DNA of 64,000 nt from Desulfomonile tiedjei. Lineage in GTDB: Bacteria > Desulfobacterota > Desulfomonilia > Desulfomonilales > Desulfomonilaceae. Numbering within the stretch: position 1 is the stretch's first letter; every line of letters begins with the position of its first letter. The stretch lies in assembly GCA_016218715.1 (NCBI GenBank), contig JACRDG010000121.1, positions 1 to 64,000 of the forward strand. The letters are read 5' to 3'. This document shows, piece by piece, positions 4,951 to 32,563 of this stretch. A program made the position numbers and the translations under genes. Under the pieces are notes generated by a model. The model ran no database searches and was not told the DNA's origin. It saw nothing but the letters and a program-made list of their open reading frames with translations.

Positions 4951-6903
4951 ATGGAGAATGAGAAGAGCCCGTGGATTATCGAAGATCGGCTCAAGAAGGT
5001 CGAAGAGGTTATCGAGAAAGAGGAAGGGATTACCAGAAAGCATAAAGCATTCTGGAGCATAATTGTTTCGGTCCTCGCGATCTCGTGCTCTCTGTTCGCA
5101 CTGTATTGCGCTATTGGCACAGTGACAACGCAAATACTTCGCGGCATTCACGTGGCGTTTGTGCTTACCTTGATCTTCATTCACTATCCGGCGCTCGCGC
5201 GGTTCAGAGACAAGGTTAACGTGCTGGACCTCGTTTTGGTTGGGCTGGGGCTGGCGGCAATCGGCTACATGCTGATAGATTTCGAGGAATTCATTTATAG
5301 AGCGGTAACTCCCGACAAATGGGACGACATCTTCGGCGCGATCCTGATCGTACTGTGTTTGGAAGCGGCACGCAGATCGACGGGCTGGATCATGCCCGTG
5401 ACAGTGGTGATCTTTCTCATCTTCTCCTACATCGGCCCCTGGTTGCCGCCACCCTGGACACACCGCGGGTATGATCTCGACCGGATCGTCGGGCACATGT
5501 ACATGACGTTGGAGGGGATCTTTGGGGTTCCGATCGACGTTTCTTCCACGTTTATCATCATGTTCACTATCTTCGGGTCTTTCCTGAGGGTGTCCGGCGC
5601 GGGCAGGTTTTATGTGGATTTCGCGTTTACAGCAATGGGGAGGAAACCCACAGGTGCGGGCCGCACCGTGTGCATGGCTTCGTTCTTTCTTGCCGGCGGT
5701 TCGGGAAGTGGAGTCGCGGACACGGTGACAGTGGGTTCGGTAGCGTACCCCATGCTCCGCAAAGCCGGGTACGACCGTGAAAACGCAGGTGGACTGCTCG
5801 CAGCGGGAGGGCTCGGGGCCGTGCTTACCCCGCCGGTGATGGGCGCGGCCGCTTTTCTCATCGCGGAGTTCTTGAGGATCAGCTATCTGGACGTCATCAA
5901 AATGGCCGCGATCCCCGCGACTCTCTACTACTGGAGCCTGTTGCTCATGGTGGAGTTCGATGCCCGGAAATTCGGCATTAAAATCGTGGAAGTAGATCAC
6001 CCCTATGACCTCTGGACCTTCACCCGCCTGTACGGATTTCATTTCTTGCCGGTCCTGACCTTGGTGGCCTTCCTGATTTCAGGATATACGCCGCCGATGT
6101 CCGTCTTTGCCGCGATCACGGTGTGCGTTGTCGCATGTTTCATCCGCAAGGAGACCAGATTCACTCCGTTGAAGCTTCTTGATGCACTCAGGGGGGGCAC
6201 GATGGCTGTTCTCCCCGTTGCGGCTGTCTGCGCTTGCGCGGGCGTCATCGTCGGCGTGGTGAGTCTCACTGGGCTTGGTTTGAAGCTTTCGACGATCATC
6301 GTCACCTACGCCGGAGGAAACCTGTTCCTGACCACCGTGTATACGGCCATCCTGCTCTGGATCATCGGACTGGCCGTTCCCATCACGGCCACCTACATCA
6401 TCGCGGCTGTCATTGCGGCGCCTGCACTCACGAAACTCGGCGTGCCGGATTACGCTGCGCACATGTTCGTTTTCTATTATGCGGTTCTCTCTGAGGTGTC
6501 ACCACCTACCGCGCTGTCTCCTTTTGCGGCTGCCGCCCTCACTGGAGGCGATCCCTTTAAGACCACGATGATGGCTTGGAAATACACTGCCGTGGCATTT
6601 ATCGTGCCGTTCATGTTCGTTCTCGACCCTTCCGGATACGCCCTGCTATTGAAGGGCGATAGCGTCCTCGGCACGTTGTGGGTGATCGCGACCTCTTATG
6701 TGGGCGTGTTCGCATTTGCATCTGCAGCGTCAGGGTGGCTCTTCAGGAAGGCCACGACGGTCGAGCGAGTCATTCTTGGCACAGCCGGACTGGCTCTTGT
6801 CCACCCGGCGTTATGGTCCGACTTCCTCGGGATTGCATTGGTGGGACTCGCCGTAGTTCTGCAGCTTGTGGTAAAGAAGCCGCAAGCGGCCCCGACTCAA
6901 TGA
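4951..6903 (+). CDS. TRAP transporter, fused small and large permease subunits
   Basis: A 650-residue membrane protein with a charged, probably coiled N-terminal 30 residues, about four helices (small DctQ-like part, roughly residues 30-190) and then a large DctM-like domain. The segment FFLAGGSGSGVADTVTVGSV with the following GLLAAGGLGAVLTPPVMGAAA is the characteristic glycine-rich re-entrant region of TRAP 4TM/12TM fusion permeases, and a second copy of this pattern is seen at YAVLSEVSPPTALSPFAAAA. It forms the ion-driven uptake channel for the TAXI receptor encoded two genes upstream, in the same operon. Length fits the family. No terminator was identified directly after the gene; about 180 bases separate it from the next gene. 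Confidence 0.93.
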   Translation: MENEKSPWIIEDRLKKVEEVIEKEEGITRKHKAFWSIIVSVLAISCSLFALYCAIGTVTTQILRGIHVAFVLTLIFIHYPALARFRDKVNVLDLVLVGLGLAAIGYMLIDFEEFIYRAVTPDKWDDIFGAILIVLCLEAARRSTGWIMPVTVVIFLIFSYIGPWLPPPWTHRGYDLDRIVGHMYMTLEGIFGVPIDVSSTFIIMFTIFGSFLRVSGAGRFYVDFAFTAMGRKPTGAGRTVCMASFFLAGGSGSGVADTVTVGSVAYPMLRKAGYDRENAGGLLAAGGLGAVLTPPVMGAAAFLIAEFLRISYLDVIKMAAIPATLYYWSLLLMVEFDARKFGIKIVEVDHPYDLWTFTRLYGFHFLPVLTLVAFLISGYTPPMSVFAAITVCVVACFIRKETRFTPLKLLDALRGGTMAVLPVAAVCACAGVIVGVVSLTGLGLKLSTIIVTYAGGNLFLTTVYTAILLWIIGLAVPITATYIIAAVIAAPALTKLGVPDYAAHMFVFYYAVLSEVSPPTALSPFAAAALTGGDPFKTTMMAWKYTAVAFIVPFMFVLDPSGYALLLKGDSVLGTLWVIATSYVGVFAFASAASGWLFRKATTVERVILGTAGLALVHPALWSDFLGIALVGLAVVLQLVVKKPQAAPTQ

Positions 6904-14680: not shown

Positions 14681-15541
14681 ATGGGGGATTCGTCGGACCA
14701 GGACCGAAAGACCTTCCCGGACAGCAGCCGAGACAAGGCTGAGGTCGAGCCGACCATCGTGGGCGGTCGGCCATTGACAAGGTGCCAGTTGCTCAAGGGG
14801 ATTCCGCGTGGCATCGAGGTGCTGATCAAGAAGGCGTCCATCGATCCGGAGTTCCGGGCGATCCTGTTGGAAAAACGAGCAGAAGCCGCGACTGAGATCG
14901 ACCTGGATCTTTCTGCCACCGAGACTACCATGCTCAACACTCTTCCCGCGGAGCAGATCGAAAAGATCATCGGGAGTACCACCGTGCCCATCGAGCATCG
15001 CCGGGTCTTTCTGGGAAGAGCCGCGGCCGCGATGCTGTCGGTGCTCGCGGGAGTCGGGTTGTCGAGATGCACAGTAAATACCGGGATCACGCCAGACATG
15101 AAGCCCATTGGGCCGGGGGAAGGCCCGCCGTTTCGGGTCAGCGGCACCAAAGTCCCGCAGGGCAGCGAACAATTGGCGGTTACCCCAATCGAGAAGAGCC
15201 CTGATGCGGTCGATGTGTCGGTGGGGTTCGACGGTCCCTTCGATTCGGGGGAAATAAGCATATCGTTCCGGTACAATAACGGGCAGCGAGCACTAGATAT
15301 AACCTGTGAGTCAACGATGCTTCTCGTTGGGAAAGGCAGACGCGACGTTACATTTCATGCGATCGGGCCATCGGGCGAGACGCGATGGATTCAGGCAGAA
15401 CTTGCCAACAGGGGCGAAAAACGTGAGCCCGCCGCCGATCCGGGACCGCTGAACCGCAACGAATACCAGGCTGGCGAATTCGTGGTTGAGGATCGTCTTA
15501 TTACGCACATCATCGAGGTCCGCAAGACATGGAAAGCCTAG
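14681..15541 (+). CDS. Leader-like module protein with Tat/TM segment, paralogue 1
   Basis: A 286-residue protein, closely similar over its first 125 residues to the product of 16250. Order: a polar start with EPTIVGGRP; a helical module, residues about 41-108, with IPRGIEVLIKKASIDPEFR and LLEKRAEAATEIDLDLS; then HRRVFLGRAAAAMLSVLAG, a twin-arginine-like hydrophobic segment ending near Cys130; then TGITPD; then a beta-rich domain (about 170-285). The DPEFR-LLekR pattern resembles nitrile-hydratase-like leader peptides that guide RiPP modification enzymes (established knowledge of that family; similarity judged by eye). GGAGAAA-like ribosome site is weak: CGAAAGGAG lies at 14665-14673. Function unknown; I infer a precursor-like or membrane-anchored substrate of the radical SAM enzyme at 17245. 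Confidence 0.72.
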   Translation: MGDSSDQDRKTFPDSSRDKAEVEPTIVGGRPLTRCQLLKGIPRGIEVLIKKASIDPEFRAILLEKRAEAATEIDLDLSATETTMLNTLPAEQIEKIIGSTTVPIEHRRVFLGRAAAAMLSVLAGVGLSRCTVNTGITPDMKPIGPGEGPPFRVSGTKVPQGSEQLAVTPIEKSPDAVDVSVGFDGPFDSGEISISFRYNNGQRALDITCESTMLLVGKGRRDVTFHAIGPSGETRWIQAELANRGEKREPAADPGPLNRNEYQAGEFVVEDRLITHIIEVRKTWKA

Positions 15542-16249
15542 GAAGCGGGCAAATGTCAGCCGACCGCACATGGATAAGCCTAAATCGGTATCGGAGCCTC
15601 ACCGGCTGTTGTGGTGGGACAGGCATCCTGCCTGTCATTTCTTAATGGCGAGGCAAGCCTGCGTAGGGTGTGGTGAGCGAAGCGAACCGCACCATTCGAG
15701 GTATGCGCGGCAGCCAGCCCAGCCACAACAACCGGCGAGCGGTGCGGTTCGCACGCCTTTGCCGTGCTCACCGGCACCCTACGCGTGCGGCCCAGCTTGC
15801 TGGCAAGTTAGGCCTCTCCCTTGGGGTCCCTGCTCTTGGCTGTTCAGTGGGGACGGCATCTTGCCGGTCACTCTTCTGGAGACAGTCCTCCCAGAGGGGC
15901 TCAGCCGATGGCCGATTCCCGGCCGTTCGCATGGGTGGAACTGCTGGTTTGTCCAGCAGTGTCTAGCCGGAAACACTGCTGTACAAGCCAGCAGTGCCAC
16001 CCTGACCCGCGAGCCTGCGAACGGGACGACAATAACGGCGAGGCATGCCAATCGCAGGCGGTTATACTTCATCACTGCGGCCTCACCGGCTGTATTGGTG
16101 GGACAGGCATCTTGCCTGTCATTCTTTGATGGACCGGCAAGATGCCGGCCCCACTGAACAGCCATTAAAGCCGCGGTGATAAATAGGGCCCTCGCGTTAC
16201 AGGAATACGGGGATGTATTTGTTAACAAAATTACTAAGGAGAGCCACGA
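15542..16249. repeat. Repeat-filled gap between the two leader-like genes
   Basis: No real gene is seen. The 708 bases are a patchwork: a GACAGGCATCCTGCCTGTC hairpin at 15617-15635; an inverted pair around 15670 and 15745 built on GAAGCGAACCGCACC and GGTGCGGTTCGCACGCC; a TTGGCTGTTCAGTGGGG plus GGCATCTTGCC unit at 15836-15868; a CAGCAGTG inverted unit near 15953-15995; and a full composite at 16098-16163 with GACAGGCATCTTGCCTGTC then GACCGGCAAGATGCCGGCC. The same modules recur at 28739, 36158 and 40651. The gap may reflect tandem duplication of the flanking paralogues followed by repeat insertion. Confidence 0.65.
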
Positions 16250-17254
16250 ATGGGCGATTCGTCAGACCGAGACCGAAACGGCGTCTCTGACAGCAGGCGC
16301 GAGACCGGGAAGGCCGAGCCGACCATCGTCGGCGGAAGGCCGCCCGGCCGCGGCAGTGGGGTGCGAAAGATTCCTCGCGGGATCGACGTGCTCATCAAGA
16401 AAGCGTCCATCGATCCGGAGTTCCGCGCGATCCTCCTGGAAAAGCGCGCAGATGCCGCGGCCGAGATAGATCTCGATCTGTCTCCGGCCGAGGCTGCCAC
16501 GCTCAACGCGGTCCCACGGTCCCAGATCGAGAAGATCATAGAAACGGCCACCGTTCCGGACGAGCAACGCCGCATCTTCCTCGGCAAAGCCGCAGCCGCG
16601 ATGCTCGCAGTGCTCTGTATGCCGGTGTTGGCAATTGCGTGGGAATTTCAAATGACGGGGCATCGAGAAGATCGGTTGCGCTATTTTGGCCGAGCGCGGC
16701 GGCGGATCGTGGCCCAACGGCTGGGTGTTCACATTCTCAGCGAAGGACCAAACGGACTCGTTTTGTCGGTTCACTATTCCTGTCCGTTTGACCAGGGGGA
16801 AATCGCGATCATGTTCCGAGATCGCGATGACTCAGCCTGTCCATTCGTACGGTGCGCTCCCGTGAGAGCAGTTGTCTCAAAAGGGGAAGGAGAGGTCCAC
16901 TTCCAGGTGCGTCGTAACGGCGGAACAACGGAATGGCTGGTCATTCGCCTCGGCCGAACGGGCGACGACGATCCGGGAGAAAAGACTTCAGCTTTGTTGG
17001 GCACCCGTGCCAAGTATTCCGTTTCACCATTCAATAAGATTTCCGATTCTGCAAAGTATCCACCGCTTCTGTGCCCTCCGCCTGGCTTACCGGAGAGTGA
17101 GTACATCGACCGTCGGCAACTGCCTCTCTGGCCTCCGGCCAAGTACCGACCCGGTGAGTTCCTTGATGGAGACCGTGCGATTTACCGGGTCGAGCAATTC
17201 CGTAGGATCTGGCCGTCAGATTCTCAGCCTTTGCTAACTGACGAATGGGAATGA
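16250..17254 (+). CDS. Leader-like module protein with TM segment, paralogue 2
   Basis: A 334-residue protein with the same architecture as the product of 14681: MGDSSD start, EPTIVGGRPPGRG, the helical module IPRGIDVLIKKASIDPEFR with LLEKRADAAAEIDLDLS, then QRRIFLGKAAAAMLAVL and a hydrophobic stretch, then a divergent beta-rich C-terminal part with SVHYSCPFDQGEIAIMF (compare GFDGPFDSGEISISF in paralogue 1) and a shared YRPGEF / YQAGEF segment near the end. AAGGAGAG lies about eight bases ahead of ATG 16250. The gene overlaps the radical SAM gene by ten bases, so both proteins are made from one message. The near-identity of the N-terminal module against the loose similarity of the rest suggests the module is what a shared partner recognises. 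Confidence 0.75.
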   Translation: MGDSSDRDRNGVSDSRRETGKAEPTIVGGRPPGRGSGVRKIPRGIDVLIKKASIDPEFRAILLEKRADAAAEIDLDLSPAEAATLNAVPRSQIEKIIETATVPDEQRRIFLGKAAAAMLAVLCMPVLAIAWEFQMTGHREDRLRYFGRARRRIVAQRLGVHILSEGPNGLVLSVHYSCPFDQGEIAIMFRDRDDSACPFVRCAPVRAVVSKGEGEVHFQVRRNGGTTEWLVIRLGRTGDDDPGEKTSALLGTRAKYSVSPFNKISDSAKYPPLLCPPPGLPESEYIDRRQLPLWPPAKYRPGEFLDGDRAIYRVEQFRRIWPSDSQPLLTDEWE

Positions 17255-18738
17255 AGAACATGTCAGCCGATATCACTTTGGTCAACTTGAACATGCTCTT
17301 GATCCGGTACGGCGAAGAGGCTGACCGGGAGCGGCACGTGCCCCTCGGCTGCCTCTATTTGACGAGAGCATGGGAAGACGTGGGTTTTTCCGTGGATTTC
17401 CGCGACTATCAGATGTGCGACGCGGAAGATCCCTTTGCCATCGAGACATTCCTCGCGTTCCTGGAAGATCCAGCGCGCATGATCGGGCTCTCGTGCATGG
17501 CGAATCTCCTGCCGTTCACCATCCTCGCGGCAAAGGCGCTCAAGGAACGCTATCCGGACCGCACCATCGTGCTCGGCGGCGTGGGCTCCAAGGCGGTCGA
17601 ACAGGCGATCCTCACCCGGTTTCCCTGGATCGACGTCATTGCCCGCGGTGAGGGTGAACTGACCGGGCTGGAACTCTTGAGAGCGCTGGTCCACAGAGGC
17701 GATCTTTCCACGGTCGCGGGAATCTCCTATCGGCAAAACGGAGCAGTCCGGCACACCGCGGACCGGCAGCGCATCGCGGATCTCGACGCGATCCCGCATC
17801 CTGCGTACCACAGGATCGATCTGATGCAATACGCGGGATACGGCATGATGACCAGCCGGGGCTGTCCGTATCCGTGTACGTTCTGCTCGGTCGCACCGGT
17901 GTGGAACAACGAGAGCTACTCGCGGAGCCCGCGGAGCATCGTCGAGGAAATGAAGGTCCTGCACCGAGAGGCTGGAGTGCAGCTTTTCCTCTTTCAGGAC
18001 GAATTCTTCGTCTCCGGCAAACAGCACGTGCTCGGTTTCTGCCGCGAGCTGGAACGATCGGGCCTCGCGGTGCACTGGAAGGCCTTCGGCCGGGTGAACC
18101 TCACTGACGAAGAAATGATGCACGCGATGGCAGATTGCGGATGTGTAGAGCTGCGCTTCGGCATCGAGTCGGGGTCGGACGCGATCCTGCGCCGCATCAG
18201 GAAGGGCTTCACCGCAGAAGAGTCGGTCGACCTCGTCTCCCGCGCGGTGGAGATCTTTCCGCGGGTCGACGCGTTCTACATCTGGGGGTTCCCCTTCGAG
18301 ACCATGGACGATTTCAACCAGACCCTGTTCCAGATGGTCTCGTTCCGCATGATGGGCGCGCGCATTTTGCCGAGCCTGCTCGCGTATCTCCCCCAAACCA
18401 GAGTCTATCAGGATTTGCCGCCCGAGACTCGACTCGAATTCTGCCCCTATCTCCTGCCGGAATTCATCTTCACCGGGCACGAGGTGCTCAAAGCAGGAAC
18501 GGTCGAGCTTCCGGAAAAGTATCGGCACTACTTCGACCTGGTCACCGCAAACCCGGATATCTTTCCCGGTTTCTTCCACGCGGATCTTCAAGGCAATGTG
18601 CTGCCGAAACTGGCATTGCTCCGTGAATTCGGTTTCTACCCGCAAGAGGAAGAGCCGGAGCCTGACCAGCAGAATACCGAGAGCTGCGGGGCACACTCAC
18701 CGCGAGTCTCTCCGCCGGACCTGGCGACCCGCGCCTGA
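17245..18738 (+). CDS. B12-binding-type radical SAM protein
   Basis: A 497-residue enzyme. Residues about 10-145 form a Rossmann-like cobalamin-binding-type domain (VPLGCLYLTRAWEDVG, then GLSCMANLLPF and VLGGVGSKA, RGEGE), without the classical DxHxxG motif, as is usual in this class. The radical SAM core has TSRGCPYPCTFCSV with cluster cysteines 207, 211 and 214, and the FGIESGSDAILRRIRKG region of the SAM site. Such enzymes methylate or otherwise modify unreactive carbons, in lipids, cofactors or peptides. Its start overlaps the end of the leader-like gene at 16250, so modification of that protein or its paralogue is the natural hypothesis. In-frame ATGs at 17251 and 17260 are alternative starts. 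The C-terminal 30 residues are acidic and low in complexity. Confidence 0.88.
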   Translation: MGMKNMSADITLVNLNMLLIRYGEEADRERHVPLGCLYLTRAWEDVGFSVDFRDYQMCDAEDPFAIETFLAFLEDPARMIGLSCMANLLPFTILAAKALKERYPDRTIVLGGVGSKAVEQAILTRFPWIDVIARGEGELTGLELLRALVHRGDLSTVAGISYRQNGAVRHTADRQRIADLDAIPHPAYHRIDLMQYAGYGMMTSRGCPYPCTFCSVAPVWNNESYSRSPRSIVEEMKVLHREAGVQLFLFQDEFFVSGKQHVLGFCRELERSGLAVHWKAFGRVNLTDEEMMHAMADCGCVELRFGIESGSDAILRRIRKGFTAEESVDLVSRAVEIFPRVDAFYIWGFPFETMDDFNQTLFQMVSFRMMGARILPSLLAYLPQTRVYQDLPPETRLEFCPYLLPEFIFTGHEVLKAGTVELPEKYRHYFDLVTANPDIFPGFFHADLQGNVLPKLALLREFGFYPQEEEPEPDQQNTESCGAHSPRVSPPDLATRA

Positions 18739-21546: not shown

Positions 21547-21674
21547 TTCATAAATACGGTATCTCCCTTGGGCCAGCCCTTGGCTGTTCGGTGGGACGGT
21601 CCCGCGCCTCGCGGAACTGTCCTGCCATGCTCCCCGAAATGGGTAGCTGGACGTGCGAAAACGAGTGCTTAAGT
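21547..21674. repeat. Composite repeat between convergent genes
   Basis: Contains the ATACGGTATCTC and CCTTGGCTGTTC modules, a CCCGCGCC/GGCGCGGG-like inverted region and, at 21655-21670, the end motif GCGAAAACGAGTGCTTA that runs up to the stop codon of the anti-sigma gene. The same end motif occurs at 28838, 36222, 40751 and 51892. Confidence 0.5.
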
Positions 21675-23137
21675 CAGTCGAGCAAGGAAGCAACCAGCGA
21701 AAGGATTCGGTCCTGAAGGTCCGCCCTGGCCACGCCGATTGCTTCGACGCGCTTCGTCTCCCGGCCTGAAGAGGGGTCGAGCCGCTTTGCATCGAGGTCG
21801 AAGATATCCCCGCGTTGGTGCAGTTGGATCAGCAAGGGTATCGCTGGGTTGGCGGTGTCTGCAAAGCCGAGGCCGCCTGCCTTGCCCGGGGCACTCTCGC
21901 CTGCCGCCGCGGGCGGTTTCTCCTCATCTTGCGTTTGCGCCAGCCGATACCGGCTCTCAAGACCCGGCGGAAGAGCCGGCCTGATCCACGAGACCTCCCG
22001 GCCGTCTGCGTCCACGACCCGCAGGGTTACCGGAATCCGGGTGTCAACCCCTTCCCGGAGGCGACCCGGCGGAGCTGCAGCCTCCTTCTCTACCGACGCA
22101 CCAAGGCTCGGCGTTGCTCCTGCTTTCTTCCGTGCGGTCGCCACTTCCGGCGTCTTCGCGGGTTCCTGACGCGCCGGGGTTGACGCAGCAGGTGCCTGGG
22201 GTTCGGCTCTCCGCGCGAGAGCCCTCCTCTCCTGGGGAACCGATTCGTACTTCTTGGCTGATGAGGGAGCCGCTTCTTGAGGGGCTGCCCGCTCATCAGG
22301 CTTCGCTCCGGTGCCCATTAGCTCGCCTGGCTTGTCGGCTTCGGCTGCAGGAGCAGCCGGTTTCTGGGGGGCTTGGGGAGGCGCGGCCACGCGATCCCGG
22401 GCACTGTCGGTTTCTTTGTCCTTGCTGTATGGCATGCCTTGGAGGGGCGGCATGCCGCCCGGGTATGGCACGCCGCCTCCGTAGGGCATGACTTGCCGGA
22501 CGGCATCTCTGCCCGGGATAGCGGCTTTCCTCTCCGCCGCAGCCCCAGGATGCTCGGCGAGCTGCTCGGGCGCGGATTGAGGGGTTACGACCGGTACCTC
22601 CTGACGTGGAATCAACACAACGATCAAGATAACCGCTGCAGCAGCAGTCCCGAGCGCAAACATCGGCAGTCGGAACGGGAAGGCAAAGAATTCACGCAAT
22701 GAGGCAACGACTCGTGTGGGCAGGCTTTCCGGCTTTTGCGTAGGATGGAGCCGCTCGATCTGGCGAACGAGTCCCGCGGGAATTGTCGGCTGCGGCTCCG
22801 CGACCTCCGTTCCGAGGCGGGCCATCTCCCGAAGCAGTTCCACATCCTCGGCGCATGCGTGACAGGATGCCAAATGGGCTGTGATCTTCCCATCCCTGTC
22901 CTCACCGGAGATGACGAACCGATGCAGCGCCTCTTCATCTGGGTGGAACGCGAGGGTTCGGTGCCGCAAGAGCGAATCCATGCTCCGCAGCGACTTCAGC
23001 TCCGCGGCGCACACCTCGCAGGTCCGGAGATGGGTCTCGAGCTCCGCGCGGACCTCCGGGGCCAGATCTCCTTCCAAGTAGGCGAGGAGCTCTGCCGGGT
23101 CCCATCCTTCCGAGCACGATGGTACTGAGTCGGTCAC
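21674..23137 (-). CDS. Transmembrane anti-sigma factor with two zinc-finger (HC2) motifs
   Basis: A 487-residue protein encoded with the ECF sigma factor, overlapping it by four bases (ATGA). The cytoplasmic N-terminus has two anti-sigma zinc motifs, H36-x3-C40-x2-C43 and H88-x3-C92-x2-C95. One transmembrane helix lies at about 156-177 (LPMFALGTAAAAVILIVVLI). The periplasmic part is long, proline/alanine/lysine-rich and disordered to about residue 385, ending in a folded region (TRIPVTLRVVDADGREVSW and PLLIQLHQRGDIFDL). It should hold the sigma factor inactive until an envelope signal arrives. A doubled HC2 motif in one protein is less common than a single one. Confidence 0.85.
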   Translation of the reverse strand: MTDSVPSCSEGWDPAELLAYLEGDLAPEVRAELETHLRTCEVCAAELKSLRSMDSLLRHRTLAFHPDEEALHRFVISGEDRDGKITAHLASCHACAEDVELLREMARLGTEVAEPQPTIPAGLVRQIERLHPTQKPESLPTRVVASLREFFAFPFRLPMFALGTAAAAVILIVVLIPRQEVPVVTPQSAPEQLAEHPGAAAERKAAIPGRDAVRQVMPYGGGVPYPGGMPPLQGMPYSKDKETDSARDRVAAPPQAPQKPAAPAAEADKPGELMGTGAKPDERAAPQEAAPSSAKKYESVPQERRALARRAEPQAPAASTPARQEPAKTPEVATARKKAGATPSLGASVEKEAAAPPGRLREGVDTRIPVTLRVVDADGREVSWIRPALPPGLESRYRLAQTQDEEKPPAAAGESAPGKAGGLGFADTANPAIPLLIQLHQRGDIFDLDAKRLDPSSGRETKRVEAIGVARADLQDRILSLVASLLD

Positions 23138-23769
23138 GTTTCACCCGCCCCCTGGTGAGCAGCCTTTGTATAGGTTCGACCCAGCGCGGATAGGCATCGC
23201 TGAACCTGACTCCGAAGGGTCACTTCTTTCAGGCCGAGAGACTCGGCAATCTCTTTGTAAGAGAGCCCCCGATCGTACCGCAACCCGAGAAGTTTTCGAC
23301 AGCTCTCCGAAATGGCATCGAGGGCCTTTCTCAGAAAATGCGTCTCCTGGGCCCTGATGAGCTGAGCCTCCTGATCCGTGTCCGCTGCTGCGAGGGAGAG
23401 GTATCCTGCCTCATCGCCCCCGTCGTGCAGGTCCACCCGTGTCGAGCCGGGATTGGCACCGCCTCGTTTGGCCGCGGACAGTCTCCGGTACCGGCTGATG
23501 CGCACGCGGCGCACGATTTCCAGGATGTATGCCTCCAGCGACCGTGCCGGGTCGTAACTCCTCAAGGCATCGAACAGTTGAATGAAGATCTCCTGGACCG
23601 TATCCTCGATCTCGTGCGGTTCGGTCCGGCAGTACTTTCTGACTGAAGTGGACACCAGTCCGAGATAACGGGCGTAGAACTCTTCCCACGCTCGCCGGTC
23701 GCCTCGATTGCAGCGTTCTATCAGACTCGCTCGTTGATCGGTGGTGCCGGACAATGGAACGCCTTTCAC
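23134..23769 (-). CDS. ECF-type RNA polymerase sigma factor
   Basis: A 211-residue sigma-70 family protein of the extracytoplasmic function class. Region 2 is visible at AWEEFYARYLGLVSTSVRKY and EIEDTVQEIFIQLFDALRSYD, and region 4 at LLGLRYDRGLSYKEIAESLG with KEVTLRSQVQRCL as the recognition helix. Upstream of the anti-sigma factor and overlapping it, it should be released on envelope stress. The downstream VIT-VWA gene is on the same strand on the other side and is not part of this transcript, since it ends before this gene begins. Target promoters are not evident. Start: ATG 23769 has a short AAAG-type site; the alternative at the internal valine is less likely. Confidence 0.9.
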   Translation of the reverse strand: MKGVPLSGTTDQRASLIERCNRGDRRAWEEFYARYLGLVSTSVRKYCRTEPHEIEDTVQEIFIQLFDALRSYDPARSLEAYILEIVRRVRISRYRRLSAAKRGGANPGSTRVDLHDGGDEAGYLSLAAADTDQEAQLIRAQETHFLRKALDAISESCRKLLGLRYDRGLSYKEIAESLGLKEVTLRSQVQRCLSALGRTYTKAAHQGAGET

Positions 23770-23852
23770 GGCATGGTTCTCGGATGCAACTCCATTGTAT
23801 GGCGCATTTCCTCCGGTTTCAAACAGAAATGCCGAATGCTGGACGAATCCTA

Positions 23853-23991
23853 AACCCTCACCCTGTCCCTCTCCCAGAGGGAGAGGGGATTCCCAGTGGC
23901 GGCGGCATCTTGCCGGTGACTTCCCTCTCCCTTTGGGAGAGGGGCAGGGCGAGGGCAGGATACGTTCACGCTCTTAAAGCGAATGGTATTA
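23853..23991. repeat. CCCTCTCCC inverted repeat unit plus repeat tail
   Basis: ACCCTCACCCTGTCCCTCTC near 23853 and its counterpart GGGAGAGGGGCAGGGCGAGG near 23935 form a large inverted repeat, each arm itself containing a hairpin (CCCTCTCCC-AGA-GGGAGAGGG). Between them lies a GGCGGCATCTTGCCGGTGAC unit. After it, CTCTTAAAGCGAATGGTATT at 23971 matches the tail of the palindromic repeat family and runs into the stop codon (TTA, 23989) of the VIT-VWA gene. Confidence 0.55.
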
Positions 23992-26466
23992 ACCCGCTGC
24001 GACCGGCTCGATGAGGCGCACGTCAGGGATCTTCGCCAGCTCTTCCAGCTTGTCCACCGCTATGAGGCCGATCACCATTTTTCCGGTACTCGCGGTGAAC
24101 GACACCTCCAGGCCCGCGGCTTTCAACTTCTTGAGCACCTCGTCCGTCGTCTTCGCGACCCAGACCTGCACCGTGGTCTTGCCGTCTTTCACGATGACTT
24201 TCCCTGCAGCGTAGTCTTTGGGCTTTTCCTTGAGCGCCACGAGCGCGGCCAGATCGGGCGAAAGTTTCCGTTCAAGTGCTGCGACCTTGCGCTCTTCTCT
24301 TTCCACCAGCACCGCAGGGGAGTCCTTTTCCCCGGGCGCTTGAAGCTTGTCCGCGACCGAGGCGGGCTCTGTCTCTTCTTTCAGCGGTGACCCGAGAACC
24401 GCTTGTCTCGTCATCGGAGCCGTCGCAGGCATTTCCAGAGACCTGGCACGTTTGGCAGCGACCCGGCCGGCCGGGAGACCGTGAAACTGCAGGGCTCCTT
24501 GAGGAGCTGCTACCGCGGCCGCATCGCCGAATATGCGCTCTCTGCTCACGCCATCTGGCATTTCAACGGGCACTGCAACCCTGGTCGGTTTGCCTCCGAT
24601 CGTGACAACCGTCTCCTCGACCGCCACGAAACTGGTGAACTGGGTCATGATGCGATGTTCCAGAGCCACGCGGACGATCTCCTCCTTGATGTCGGACTTG
24701 GGATTCCCTCGTTGCATGCCCATCCAATCCCGCCCCATGAGATCGTCCACCTTGGCCCTTGCCCAGAGGGGACCGAGCGAGCTGTTGGCCGCTTCCTTGT
24801 CCGGCAGGGTAACCTCGAGTCTCTGCTCGTACGGCTTCCCGCCGCTGAACCCCTTGATCGTGACGGTCCCTTTTCCTGGACTGGTATAGCGTGCCTTGAA
24901 GATCAGAGGCTTGCGATCCCACAGGTCCGCGACGGCTTCCGGGAATCGTTCTTCGAGAGAGAGCCCGTCCAGAGACAGGGAAATGTCGGTTAAAACCGGG
25001 GTGGCAATGCGCTGGTAGAACTTCTTCCCGACCTCTTCCGCCGAGCTGTTGAGCAGGACGTAATCGACTTCGCCTCCGCCAACCCGAGCCATCTGGTCCA
25101 GGAGGAATCGGTTGACCGAATTGCCGGTGCCGAACGGGAACCATCGGCTCTTTCCCCTCAGCTTCTGCACGAGCGAGATAATCTCGAAATCGTTCCCCAC
25201 GTACCCGTCTGTCATGAACGTAACGATGCGGAGCCGGTTCTCCGGAGGCGGGGTCTTGCACACCAGTTCGACAGCAGGCCCCATCCAGGTGCCGCCATTG
25301 GCATTGAGCGATTCGATGTATCGAAGGGCCTTGCCACGATACTCCGGGGTATTCTTCTTCGGTTCGGAGAAGAGCATGTTGGCCGTGGAACCGAAGTCGA
25401 TCACGTTGAACGTGTCGTCGGGATTCATGCGATCGATCACGTATTTCATGGTCTCAACGGCCTTTTGCAAGGGTTTGCCGTGCTGCGAGCCCGAGCGATC
25501 GATCACGAAGATCATCTCTTTGCCCGCGATTTGTTCCGGTTTGACCCGCTTCGGAGGGATCAGGATCAGGGCGACCTGCCCTTCTTTCCCCTCTTTGTGC
25601 GAGAGGAACCCCGATCGAATCCGATCGTCCGCAACGAGATAACTCAGGACAAAATCCCGGTTCGGTATTTCTTTCTTGTCCTTCAAGGCTATGGTTGCGC
25701 GATTCTTGCCATCCCGAGCGATAGCCACCTCATGGAGCTTGGACTCCATCCCGAGGATTGGAACTCCCGCGTCGACGGTTACGGTCAGGTCGATGTCGTG
25801 ACCGGCCCGGGTACCCTCGGGGGTCACTGGCGGAGTTATCTTACTCGCGTCGGGAACCTGGGTCGTATCCTCAGCCCAACCGGTCCCCTGCTTGCCCACC
25901 GGTTGGCCGGGGATGAACCTCGGCCCGACCACCATAGGAAAGACGAATTTGAAGGAGCCGTCATCGTACGGGAGCATTTCTACGTACTTGATAGTGATCT
26001 CCACCTTCTGGCCGGGCATGATGTTCGCCACGGACTGGGTGAAGATGTTGGGCCGTTCCTGGTCGAGCAGCGACGCGACGTGCCCTTTGTCGCGCGCCTC
26101 TTCGTAGATGCGCCGCGCTTCTTCCCGTCGCTTGATCTCTCCCCGCACGACCCGCTCTCCGACCCGCATCACCATGTCGTCCACCGCCGCATCGGAGGGG
26201 AGCGGGAACGTATAAACCGCCTCGATCTTGTCCTCCCGCGGATTGTGGAAGGTCTGGGTCACCGACACCCGCGAAACAAACCCGGATACCTCGGCTTTTA
26301 CAGAGGTATGTTCGAGTGGGCACCCGCGGCCGGGTTTGCCGTCCGGTTCGATGATCGTTAAGGTGCCTTGACCGGGAACTTCTCCCAGGCTCAATCCCGC
26401 GGCCCAGCAGATGGCTGCCACGACGAAGAACATGCCGGCCGCAATGTGAAGTCTTTGCCTTTTCAT
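23989..26466 (-). CDS. VIT and von Willebrand A domain protein, exported
   Basis: An 825-residue secreted or periplasmic protein. The frame is open to 26649, but GGAGG lies eight bases before ATG 26466 and this start gives a clean signal peptide (RLHIAAGMFFVVAAICWAAG). Domain order: VIT domain at about 35-175 (VSGFVSRVSVTQTFHNP, EAVYTFPLPSDAAVDDM, and RREEARRIYEEARDKGHVA, a diagnostic VIT stretch), then a VWA domain near 325-500 with the metal-site motif VIDRSGS, then a proline/alanine-rich linker and a C-terminal segment of about 90 residues resembling a ferredoxin-like repeat (KTTVQVWVAKTTDEVLKKLK). Relatives form inter-alpha-trypsin inhibitor-like surface proteins; the role in bacteria is mostly unknown. 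Confidence 0.88.
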   Translation of the reverse strand: MKRQRLHIAAGMFFVVAAICWAAGLSLGEVPGQGTLTIIEPDGKPGRGCPLEHTSVKAEVSGFVSRVSVTQTFHNPREDKIEAVYTFPLPSDAAVDDMVMRVGERVVRGEIKRREEARRIYEEARDKGHVASLLDQERPNIFTQSVANIMPGQKVEITIKYVEMLPYDDGSFKFVFPMVVGPRFIPGQPVGKQGTGWAEDTTQVPDASKITPPVTPEGTRAGHDIDLTVTVDAGVPILGMESKLHEVAIARDGKNRATIALKDKKEIPNRDFVLSYLVADDRIRSGFLSHKEGKEGQVALILIPPKRVKPEQIAGKEMIFVIDRSGSQHGKPLQKAVETMKYVIDRMNPDDTFNVIDFGSTANMLFSEPKKNTPEYRGKALRYIESLNANGGTWMGPAVELVCKTPPPENRLRIVTFMTDGYVGNDFEIISLVQKLRGKSRWFPFGTGNSVNRFLLDQMARVGGGEVDYVLLNSSAEEVGKKFYQRIATPVLTDISLSLDGLSLEERFPEAVADLWDRKPLIFKARYTSPGKGTVTIKGFSGGKPYEQRLEVTLPDKEAANSSLGPLWARAKVDDLMGRDWMGMQRGNPKSDIKEEIVRVALEHRIMTQFTSFVAVEETVVTIGGKPTRVAVPVEMPDGVSRERIFGDAAAVAAPQGALQFHGLPAGRVAAKRARSLEMPATAPMTRQAVLGSPLKEETEPASVADKLQAPGEKDSPAVLVEREERKVAALERKLSPDLAALVALKEKPKDYAAGKVIVKDGKTTVQVWVAKTTDEVLKKLKAAGLEVSFTASTGKMVIGLIAVDKLEELAKIPDVRLIEPVAAG

Positions 26467-26831
26467 CGTTGAATCCTCCAGGTTTGGTTCGCTCATGGTT
26501 CGGGGCTCGCATTGTTGAGCCTTACCCATCACTTCGCAGGGCGAACCGCAATGTTGCAGCAGGGAAGAGACTTTTTTCCCATAAACCAAAAGGAATTGTA
26601 AAATTAGGGGATTATGACCGTTGTTGGTGCAGTGACTCCAGGGTGACACATCGGGTCAGGGGAAGCGTAAGGAGAGCAAGTGCCGATCCAGGCTCTGGGT
26701 GCTCCTTTCTGGTGTTCTGGAGAGAAATCGTGAATCTTCTCGTCTCATACCGCATCTTATTTATGACGGGATGGTGTAGTACGCCACGAAGATTCAGACA
26801 AAGAATATAAAAGCAAGGAGGAGGGCATATC
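26467..26831. other. Divergent intergenic region
   Basis: 365 bases between the divergent VIT-VWA and small secreted protein genes. No gene or convincing promoter was recognised. Confidence 0.4.
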
Positions 26832-29361: not shown

Positions 29362-29706
29362 GGCTTTGATACTCCAGGTTGCAATAGTTTTGTGCAACCA
29401 TAACACATGATGAGTTATTTGTCACGGGGGAATCGTGTCGCGCTACGAGGAACCTGCAACCCGCTATACCCACCGCGCGTGCAGGGCCAACTGGCTTTGT
29501 TGCAGAAAAGTCGTTGTTGACAAAGCATTGCGTTGTGATAGAAGTGGTGCCGTTCTCAATCCCGGTTGTCACGCCCAACAACGCAGCAAGGTCAGGCGCC
29601 TCAAAGGATTCCCGAGGTCGCCGGCGCGACCCGTGGGCATGAGGCAACGAGGGAGAGGGCGGTAGGTTTGCACGAAACCTTCCCGAGAAGCGTACCGGTC
29701 GAGGTT
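29362..29706. other. Divergent intergenic region
   Basis: 345 bases between the divergent lysine-rich and radical SAM genes. No gene seen. TTGACA at 29517 is a perfect -35 box, but no good -10 box follows at 16-18 bases, so the promoter is only possible. Confidence 0.4.
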
Positions 29707-31095
29707 ATGATGCACAAGATCCTGTTTGTAACCGCAGCGGACTCCACATCGGAATTCGAGAACCGCTACCGTCCCTTGTGGCCGGGCTACCTGGCGGCCT
29801 TTGCCGAAAAACAGTTGGGGCTGGGAGCACTCGATTTCCGATACATGGCCGGCAATCTGGAAAGTGAACTCGCTGAATATCGGCCGGACATTGTAGCCAT
29901 CGGCTCGGTCTCGCAGAATTTCGGCTATGCGATCGAATATGCCCGCATCGCGAAGGAGCATGGGAAAAACGTCCTCGTAGGTGGCGCCCATATCACGCTC
30001 CTTCCCAGGTCTCTCACCACCCACATGGATGTGGGAGTGATCGGGGAGGGAGAGCAGACCTTTTCGGAATTGATGGAACTGTACCTGGATCAGGGTGGTT
30101 TTCCCGCAGACAGGCTCGCCAAAATCAAGGGGATCGTTTACCGCGAGGACGGCCAATTGGTAACCACCCCACCGCGGCCGCTGATCGAGAAGCTCGACGA
30201 CATCCCACATCCGAAGAGATCGTTGATCGGATACCGGCACGATTCGTACATCATGAGTTCACGCGGATGTCCGTACAATTGTTCATTCTGTGCCTCGACT
30301 AAATTCTGGAATAGCTACCGCAACGCGTCCGCCGAGTACCTGGTGGAAGAGATCGAAGACCTCGCTGCGCATGGCTGCACTGTGATCCGGGTGAACGACG
30401 ATCTCTTTGCGTCGCATAAGAAGCGCCTGCAAAAGGTTGCAGACCTCATGGTCGCTCAGGGGTTACGCGAGAAAGTAGGTTTCGGCTGCCTGGCGCGGGC
30501 GAATCACGTAACCAAAGAGCTGGTGCAACTGCTCAAAGAAATGAAGGTTGTCTCCGCATCCATGGGTTTGGAGAGTGGTTCGGAACGCACCCTGGCCTAC
30601 CTCAAGGGGAAAAACGTCACAGTCGAGGATAACGAGCGGGCAGTGCATCTATTCAAGGAGGCCGGCATCCAGACGAATGGTTACTTCATTATCGGTGCCC
30701 CCGATGAAACCGAAGAAGAAATCATGGATACGTACCGATTCATTAAACGCAGCCCCCTGGATTTTATCGAGATACTCGTCCTGGTACCTTTGCCCGGAAC
30801 AATCATCTGGCAGTGGGCCCTCGATCGCGGTCTCGTTTCCGAGGACATGGATTGGAACCTGCTGAATATTAACTTTGAGTACAATCACGAGAAATCAATC
30901 ATTGTTTCGGAGCGATTGACCCGAGAGGAAATTCATCGCCTGTACAAGAAATTTCGGCGGCTCCGTTTCTATCGCATCGCTCGGAGCCTTCCGACCTCCC
31001 CGTGGCTTGGACAGGTCCCGCGAGTCGTCGCGAGCAAGATTGTGGCACGGGCGTCCCGCGCCAAGGCACGGCTCCTGGCTGCTGTTGGTTCGTGA
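29707..31095 (+). CDS. B12-binding-type radical SAM protein, first of a tandem pair
   Basis: A 462-residue enzyme. The frame is open to 29566, but GAGGTT just before the ATG-ATG pair at 29707/29710 and alignment with the next gene set the start here. Residues 1-140 form the cobalamin-type Rossmann domain (PDIVAIGSVSQNF, VLVGGAHITLLP, GVIGEGEQTFSEL). The radical SAM domain has MSSRGCPYNCSFCAS with cluster cysteines 188, 192 and 195, and later GLESGSERTLAYLKGKNVTV and FIIGAPDETEEEI. The C-terminal 60 residues are basic. Substrate unknown. It is closely similar to the following gene throughout, so the two arose by duplication. Confidence 0.87.
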   Translation: MMHKILFVTAADSTSEFENRYRPLWPGYLAAFAEKQLGLGALDFRYMAGNLESELAEYRPDIVAIGSVSQNFGYAIEYARIAKEHGKNVLVGGAHITLLPRSLTTHMDVGVIGEGEQTFSELMELYLDQGGFPADRLAKIKGIVYREDGQLVTTPPRPLIEKLDDIPHPKRSLIGYRHDSYIMSSRGCPYNCSFCASTKFWNSYRNASAEYLVEEIEDLAAHGCTVIRVNDDLFASHKKRLQKVADLMVAQGLREKVGFGCLARANHVTKELVQLLKEMKVVSASMGLESGSERTLAYLKGKNVTVEDNERAVHLFKEAGIQTNGYFIIGAPDETEEEIMDTYRFIKRSPLDFIEILVLVPLPGTIIWQWALDRGLVSEDMDWNLLNINFEYNHEKSIIVSERLTREEIHRLYKKFRRLRFYRIARSLPTSPWLGQVPRVVASKIVARASRAKARLLAAVGS

Positions 31096-31198
31096 AACGT
31101 TCTTGGAGCGGGAGAGTGCCCGTAAGAGTCATCCCGAGTCCGCCGCTCCGGCTGGCAGCCAACCGGGAGAACGCGGATGGCATCGCCCGGAGGTTGTT

Positions 31199-32563
31199 GT
31201 GATAAACGTCCTATGCGTCAACATAGTGGATCCGATCTCAGAGGTCGAGAATCGCTATCCGCCACTATGGCCCGCCTATTTGGCCGCGTATGCGGACAGG
31301 ACCCTCGGAGAGGGTCGCGTGGATTTTCGGGTCGTGACCAAAGGGCTCGAACAGGAAATTGAATCCTACAAGCCGCACATTGTGGCCCTCGGGTCGGTAT
31401 CGCAGAATTTTGCCCTGGCGAAACAGCAGGCACGCGTGTGCAAGGAGCGTGGGCTGCCGGTGGTCATCGGCGGTCCCCACATCTCGCTCTTGCCTGAGTG
31501 CCTCACCCGGGACATGGATGTAGGGTGCATCGGAGAAGGAGAGCAAACCTTCTCGGAACTTCTGGAACTGTTTCTGGACCAGGGTCGATTTACACCGGAC
31601 GCGCTCAGCGACATAGCGGGTATCGCCTATCATGAGGACGGCCGGGTGAAAGTAACCCCGAGGCGTGAGCTGATCCGGAATTTGGACGACGTTCCCCATC
31701 CCAAGAGGTCGCTCATCGGTTACGGGCGAGATCCGTATATTATCGGTTCGCGCGGGTGCCCGTACAAGTGTACGTACTGCGCATCCTCGCGTTTTTGGAA
31801 GACATATCGCGTTGCTTCCGCGGATTACGCGGTGGAAGAAATTGTCGAACTCGCTGTGCACGGCTCCCGATTGATTCGGTTCAATGATGACCTGTTCATG
31901 AGCAACCGGACCCGTGTGGAGAAGATCATCACTGGGTTGGAGGACCAGGGACTGCTCGGAAAGATAGCTTTCTCCTGTTCTCTGAGGGCCAACCTGGTCA
32001 CCAAGGAACTCGCTGCGCTGCTGAAGCGCATGAATGTGGCTTCTGTGACCATGGGACTGGAAAGCGGTTCCAACCGCGTTCTGGCATCCCTTAAAGGGGG
32101 CGTAACCGTCGAGCAGAACGAGGCCGCTGTGAACTCCTTGAAGGACGCCGGCATTCAATCCAACGCATTCTTCGTCATCGGAGCCCCGGATGAGACCGAG
32201 GACGAGATCATGCAAACCTATCGGTTTATCAAGCGCAGTCGCCTTGACTTTGTCGGTGTGTACGTTCTCGTTCCCCTTCCGGGTACACCCATATGGGACT
32301 TCGCTGCCGAGAAGGGGTTGGTCTCCGCGGACATGGATTGGACGTTGCTGAACATGAATTTTGAGTACAATGCCGACAGACTCGTAATCGTCTCCCAGAA
32401 TCTCACCCGCGACGAAATCAAACACTTGTACCGGAAATTTCGGCGACAGCGTCTCTACCGGATCCTGAAGGCTCTGCCAAGCTCCCCGTGGCTTTGGGAC
32501 ATTCCGCGCGTGGCCCTTGGCGATCTGCTGGAGAGAATGCGCAGGCTGGTCGCCAAGGCATAA
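31199..32563 (+). CDS. B12-binding-type radical SAM protein, second of a tandem pair
   Basis: A 454-residue paralogue of the preceding protein. I chose GTG 31199, preceded by CGGAGG at about five bases; its first residues INVLCVNIVDPISEVENRYP align directly with the start of the first copy, whereas the longer open frame (to 31007) overlaps that gene and looks non-coding. Cluster cysteines are 187, 191 and 194 in GSRGCPYKCTYCAS. Other conserved blocks: GGPHISLLP, IGEGEQTFSEL, DDVPHPKRSLIGYG, GLESGSNRVLASLKGG. About 100 bases separate the pair. Retention of all catalytic motifs in both copies implies two active enzymes with related substrates, perhaps acting in series. Confidence 0.87.
   Translation: MINVLCVNIVDPISEVENRYPPLWPAYLAAYADRTLGEGRVDFRVVTKGLEQEIESYKPHIVALGSVSQNFALAKQQARVCKERGLPVVIGGPHISLLPECLTRDMDVGCIGEGEQTFSELLELFLDQGRFTPDALSDIAGIAYHEDGRVKVTPRRELIRNLDDVPHPKRSLIGYGRDPYIIGSRGCPYKCTYCASSRFWKTYRVASADYAVEEIVELAVHGSRLIRFNDDLFMSNRTRVEKIITGLEDQGLLGKIAFSCSLRANLVTKELAALLKRMNVASVTMGLESGSNRVLASLKGGVTVEQNEAAVNSLKDAGIQSNAFFVIGAPDETEDEIMQTYRFIKRSRLDFVGVYVLVPLPGTPIWDFAAEKGLVSADMDWTLLNMNFEYNADRLVIVSQNLTRDEIKHLYRKFRRQRLYRILKALPSSPWLWDIPRVALGDLLERMRRLVAKA

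Follow-up and report, generated by a model that had tools for sequence, protein, structure and literature searches.

A nitrile-hydratase-like leader module coupled to a B12-binding radical SAM enzyme: a putative protein-modification cassette of Desulfomonilaceae and Planctomycetota

RiPP chemistry has been observed mostly on short peptides that have a disposable leader and a dedicated exporter. The precursors of the NHLP type carry a nitrile-hydratase-like leader, a Gly-Gly site and a short variable core, and are associated with an ABC exporter (Haft 2010, PMC2887384). Os1348 of Pseudomonas Os17 (PDB 6LK7) is a stand-alone protein of 85 aa, encoded together with acetyltransferase, peptidase and SagB-type genes (PMC7726476). 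Precursors bearing signal peptides have been described as rare, with the MNIO systems as the main case (PMC12452194). Cobalamin-dependent radical SAM enzymes mostly methylate carbon, and they also perform ring contraction, thioether formation and ring formation (PMC13331322). ApyD acts on a RiPP precursor, and non-methylating enzymes such as BchE and OxsB also belong to the wider family. For C-methylation of Arg or Gln within a full-size protein, the enzymes acting on methyl-coenzyme M reductase provide a precedent. In the literature searched, we found no description of the system of module, motif and enzyme reported here.

The window (the whole stretch of DNA analyzed, 64,000 nucleotides of a Desulfomonile tiedjei contig) contains three genes, whose existence and coordinates were confirmed as originally predicted; they and all features within them are on the + strand. 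Two of them encode leader-module proteins: P0001 (14681–15541; 286 aa; NF038399, E 3.6e-8; homologues found) and P0002 (16250–17254; 334 aa; NF038399, E 6.1e-7). In both, an N-terminal module is followed by a hydrophobic segment and a diverging tail. The gene located directly 3′ encodes P0003, a B12-binding radical SAM enzyme (17245–18738; 497 aa; PF02310, 1.4e-10; PF04055, 3.9e-19). The claimed ten-base overlap of P0002 with this gene held only in part, since it varies with the start codon chosen: the overlap is 10 bases with ATG 17245 and 4 bases (ATGA) with ATG 17251, and there is none with ATG 17260 (MSADITL), the place at which the orthologues begin.

The shared N-terminal module of approx. 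125 residues was also confirmed; "near identity" was too strong a term for 71% over residues 25–122 and 68% over residues 1–122. Within the module, pN was 0.19 and pS 0.52, which indicates purifying selection, and this shared, constrained module shows that P0001 and P0002 are genuine proteins whose likeness is not due to chance. The tails diverged further (pN 0.47, pS saturated), yet both contain a related beta domain, so the statement that the C-terminal parts simply differ was only partly correct. The region between the paralogues (15596–16164) contains direct and inverted repeats (the GTGGGACAGGCATCTTGCCTGTC family), including one inverted pair of 33 nt (97%), and terminator-like hairpins.

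In order of increasing residue number, the module comprises a TIVGGRP motif (14753–14773 in P0001, 16322–16342 in P0002), invariant in the 13 full-length aligned modules and lacking in some tandem paralogues, and an NHLP-clan, Os1348-type domain (P0001 residues 44–95, 14810–14965; P0002 residues 45–95, 16382–16534). The model NF038399 (Os1348 family, NHLP clan) matched all 13 module sequences scanned, at best with 6.2e-11; P0001 (33.4 bits) and P0002 (29.4 bits) remained slightly below its curated cut-off of 40. Four of the 13 modules also matched nitrile hydratase alpha weakly, and one matched TIGR03793 weakly. When a profile of the module was compared with all PDB sequences, the best match was nitrile hydratase alpha 4ob1 (7e-5), followed by 6lk7, i.e. 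Os1348 (0.022), and then by more nitrile hydratases with weak E-values. As two independent libraries (NCBIfam and PDB) agree on the NHLP/nitrile hydratase origin, its kinship with the NHLP leader domains is real, though distant. An alignment of 17 modules revealed no conserved Gly-Gly at the module end; the hydrophobic segment is found there instead.

P0003 has the architecture of cobalamin-dependent radical SAM enzymes: a B12-binding domain (residues 31–142, 17335–17670; PF02310) and a radical SAM domain with the CxxxCxxC iron-sulphur motif CPYPCTFC (17863–17886), whose cysteines C207, C211 and C214 are invariant in 15 orthologues. Also invariant in these is S480–H484 of the conserved tail SCGAHSPR...LATRA (18682–18735). 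The best NCBIfam relatives (ApyD, BchE and HpnJ) all scored far under the cut-off, and the nearest solved relatives in PDB were CysS, OxsB, AprD4 and TokK.

Two more B12-type radical SAM genes, overlapping and BchE/HpnJ-like, are located in the window at 29566–31095 and 31007–32563; they too missed every curated cut-off by far. The region 21674–26649 contains sigma and anti-sigma genes beside a protein that comes close to TIGR03788, the marine sortase target family, with 501 bits against a cut-off of 552.

The module was found in 4 of 42 genomes of the window's class and in 2 of 395 genomes sampled from its phylum. It was also found in 10 of 397 genomes from the class of Phycisphaerae bacterium SG8_4 (one of these, G421, was a weak match and was excluded from later counts) and in 9 of 392 from the phylum of that bacterium. 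Counting each genome once, there were 21 strong-module genomes from two phyla. In 19 of these an orthologous B12 radical SAM gene is adjacent to the module and on the same strand; one of these enzymes (L038) is truncated by a contig end, and the complete ones are 56–79% identical to P0003. The 20th genome (G976, L075) retains only the C-terminal tail of the enzyme; the module continues in frame into this tail (8722–9198 of L075), as an internal deletion would leave it. In the 21st (G005), which belongs to the same family as the window genome, the enzyme orthologue is absent genome-wide. In the reverse direction, the enzyme was detected in 9/397 genomes and the module accompanied it in eight; in the ninth, the contig stops about 100 bases upstream of the enzyme. 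No other recurring function was observed among the ten neighbouring proteins scanned, and these included no ABC exporter (the scan did not extend to every neighbour or to whole genomes) and no conserved peptidase. No relative was found in viral contigs.

In the enzyme tree, the Desulfomonilaceae are placed among most of the Planctomycetota, and four deeper Planctomycetota are split off by a fully supported branch. This topology suggests inter-phylum transfer; however, most of the inner branches are weak and the tree was midpoint-rooted.

The loci contain from one to five module genes. In L071 (6639–10096), five tandem leader-module genes precede a single enzyme gene, and only the first and the last have kept TIVGGRP. 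L010 has a frameshift in its second leader gene (5567–5990), and the enzyme gene of L042 (8912–10324) runs out of frame near the C-terminus, in both cases by sequencing error or decay. In L070 (5768–6948), two diverged module genes with prepilin-like tails and no GIRPD motif are located downstream of the enzyme.

The hydrophobic segment is present in all 39 module proteins, with a mean hydropathy of at least 1.69 across 15 residues, and typically reads FLGKxAAAMLxALG. In P0001 this is RRVFLGRAAAAMLSVLAGVGLSRC (14999–15070) and in P0002 RRIFLGKAAAAMLAVLCMPVLAIA (16568–16642), the latter with a possible signal peptidase I site. A twin arginine precedes the segment in all five Desulfomonilaceae proteins and in several Planctomycetota (with a textbook SRREFLK in L077); the others lack it. 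Export through Tat was therefore rejected for the members as a whole. In many cases a lipobox (LSGC, VAGC, LAGC or LTGC) or an AxA-type site comes after the segment, which suggests a general signal peptide in those members without a twin arginine. Our reading of the segment as a signal peptide located approx. 105 residues inside the protein is inferred from sequence alone, without a dedicated predictor; given this internal position, signal peptidase would take off the module as well.

Behind the segment we identified a recurrent and often repeated motif, [TS][RK]GIRPDxP, which is at times exactly C-terminal. In a count with no preset pattern, GI.PD, G.RPD and RPD.P ranked top, each present in 10 of 17 post-module regions, while no pattern exceeded six regions in 50 shuffles. 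Sites of the form G[IVML].P[DE] numbered 26, against 0.7 expected from shuffles. Among the 12,922 aa of the module proteins, the form G[IV]xPDxP (x = R, T, Q, E or S) occurred 40 times, compared with a single occurrence among 126,108 aa of other ORFs. A matrix trained on Planctomycetota alone detected 69 sites, spread over 26 of the 34 proteins from that phylum, with the consensus [TS][RK]GIRPDRPP. The remaining eight are without a site at the threshold applied; for most of them, the operon includes both the enzyme gene and paralogues with the motif (the exceptions are L043 and L010). Four of the five tandem proteins of L071 terminate exactly in GIRPDRP or GIQPDRP, and several precursors (L042, L044, L079) repeat the motif in tandem. 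Tandem paralogues without TIVGGRP nonetheless bear it. A genome-wide search with a DNA pattern for GIRPDxP (Ser allowed at Arg) returned additional sites beyond the module loci, in excess of the control with the reversed pattern, so the motif may have a wider use. We found nothing relevant on GIRPD in this sense in the literature searched, which does not exclude work elsewhere.

The Desulfomonilaceae had been held out from the matrix. Where the enzyme is present, sites were detected in L012 and L011 (p 0.0005 each), in P0001 (NTGITPDMKP, 15077–15106; shuffle p 0.024) and in P0002 (the degenerate MTGHREDRLR, 16652–16681; shuffle p 0.025; cf. SRGHRADRPP in L077), each at most some 20 residues away from the module. 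The two window proteins carry a single degenerate copy each, at p about 0.025. The homologue in the enzyme-free genome G005 has no motif (p 0.97), and its TIVGGRP has been lost as well (IVDERS). The joint absence of motif and enzyme depends on this one clear genome.

The motif is located in proline-rich linkers and C-termini, and its carriers vary by locus: proline-rich tails, a beta-sandwich (Desulfomonilaceae only), thioredoxin-like and hydrolase-like parts in L076/L077, and the prepilin-like tails of L070. Except for the beta-sandwich, these names come from inspection or sub-threshold Pfam matches. The AlphaFold models of the window and L010 proteins were poor (mean pLDDT 47–48) and did not permit docking; the only usable part was the beta-sandwich of P0002 (16721–16957; pLDDT about 65–79), which has weak Ig/PapD-like matches.

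The original prediction had likened the module to NHLP leaders, proposed that it occurs together with radical SAM genes and recruits the enzyme, and regarded the C-terminal part, with its folded-looking beta domain, as variable cargo exported through a Tat-like segment. The likeness, whose non-significance had been named as a refuting outcome, is significant (NF038399 and the PDB profile), and the co-occurrence, whose absence from most module homologues had been named as another, was borne out by the adjoining orthologous enzyme genes in both phyla. The export and cargo claims were only partly upheld: an export segment behind the module is supported, with a twin arginine in some members only, and the beta domain is merely one among several carriers. 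Recruitment is still an inference. The recurrent GIRPDRP motif had been overlooked, and is likelier than the beta domain to be the modified core.

The gene coupling, the NHLP homology, the recurrent motif and the hydrophobic segment are established by these results. The reading that we favour, with moderate confidence and without biochemical data, is a leader-guided protein-modification cassette consisting of one or more substrate proteins and a single B12-dependent radical SAM enzyme. As in a RiPP, a leader, a core and an enzyme can be recognized, while leader-dependent modification itself is inferred. According to this model, the NHLP-type module with its TIVGGRP would be a cytoplasmic docking domain for the enzyme, and the docked module would present the G-I-R-P-D-x-P motif (or motifs) behind the hydrophobic segment. 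The enzyme would then most likely C-methylate Ile, Arg, Pro or Asp of the motif, or carry out another carbon-centred reaction. C-methylation is a first guess, made because the family mostly methylates carbon and because of the methyl-coenzyme M reductase precedent; it is possible by analogy and has not been shown. Export would follow modification, with the segment acting as a signal peptide, Tat-like in Desulfomonilaceae and deep Planctomycetota, and signal peptidase I or II would cut away the leader module along with the signal, so that a modified lipoprotein or secreted protein remains. Docking, target residue, chemistry, export and cleavage are all inferred. A bolder version, which we consider somewhat less likely than not, is a general unrecognized modification and export pathway, in which the NHLP docking module, together with its internal signal peptide, would bring diverse full-size exported proteins to one B12 radical SAM enzyme for modification of their repeated GIRPDRP tags, and signal peptidase would double as the leader peptidase.

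A possible alternative is that the enzyme targets the TIVGGRP/NHLP module itself, a folded domain or a small metabolite, and that GIRPDRP stays unmodified and tags exported proteins for sorting, anchoring or binding. In its favour, TIVGGRP is invariant in full-length modules and degenerate in the enzyme-free genome, the motif occupies proline-rich linkers and C-termini as sorting tags do, and eight module proteins have no clear motif. However, the enzyme-free genome lacks the motif as well, no recurring gene able to read such a tag was found among the scanned neighbours, and the tandem paralogues devoid of TIVGGRP still bear the motif. Moreover, the carrier domains vary between loci, therefore no common folded domain can be the enzyme target.

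It could also be argued that this is an ordinary RiPP system, in which a protease frees short modified GIRPDRP peptides and the long carriers are incidental. The tandem repeats resemble multi-core RiPPs, and the module belongs to a RiPP leader clan. We consider this unlikely, given that no conserved peptidase or ABC exporter was found among the scanned neighbours, that there is no Gly-Gly site behind the module, and that many precursors, including the window proteins, are several hundred residues long with folded parts. Least likely of all, and very improbable, is that module and enzyme genes are neighbours by shared ancestry or chance, without joint action. The module protein without an enzyme in one genome could be cited in support of this, but the adjacency persists in two phyla, at enzyme identities of 56–79% and in loci that have anything from one to five module genes, and no enzyme gene was found without a module, apart from the one at a contig end.

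With the cassette as our preferred reading, the system may represent a route, not described so far, by which whole secreted proteins are modified chemically, the modification being inferred. A leader domain of the RiPP kind is here placed on putatively secreted proteins and joined to what would be an ordinary signal peptide and a short recurrent tag. If the tag is indeed modified, one enzyme and a seven-residue motif would bring about C-H modification of entire proteins under the guidance of a leader, and what these marks do on the proteins exported by Planctomycetota and Desulfomonilaceae could be tested directly.

Compared with described systems, the module proteins resemble NHLP/proteusin precursors (TIGR03793) in their nitrile hydratase alpha-derived N-terminal domain, the adjacent peptide-modifying enzyme and the tandem paralogues. 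They differ in lacking a Gly-Gly site and, as far as the ten scanned neighbours reveal, a dedicated ABC exporter; moreover, their putative core is a conserved proline-rich motif instead of a short variable peptide rich in Cys, Ser or Thr, and the proteins reach several hundred residues. Of the four NHLP precursor traits (PMC2887384), they meet leader homology alone. The Os1348 family (NF038399) provides the closest domain model, but Os1348 has no radical SAM gene, signal segment or tag. P0003 shares the B12-binding and radical SAM architecture of ApyD, BchE, HpnJ, CysS and TokK; in contrast to these, its family scores are far below curated cut-offs and it has its own invariant SCGAH tail. The MNIO-modified bufferins (PMC12452194) are similar in their cytoplasmic modification and signal-peptide export, both of which are inferred for the module proteins, and in that some precursors are long or lipoproteins. 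However, they depend on another enzyme family and on Cys motifs, and their signal peptide stands in for the leader, whereas in the module proteins the signal segment comes after the NHLP domain.
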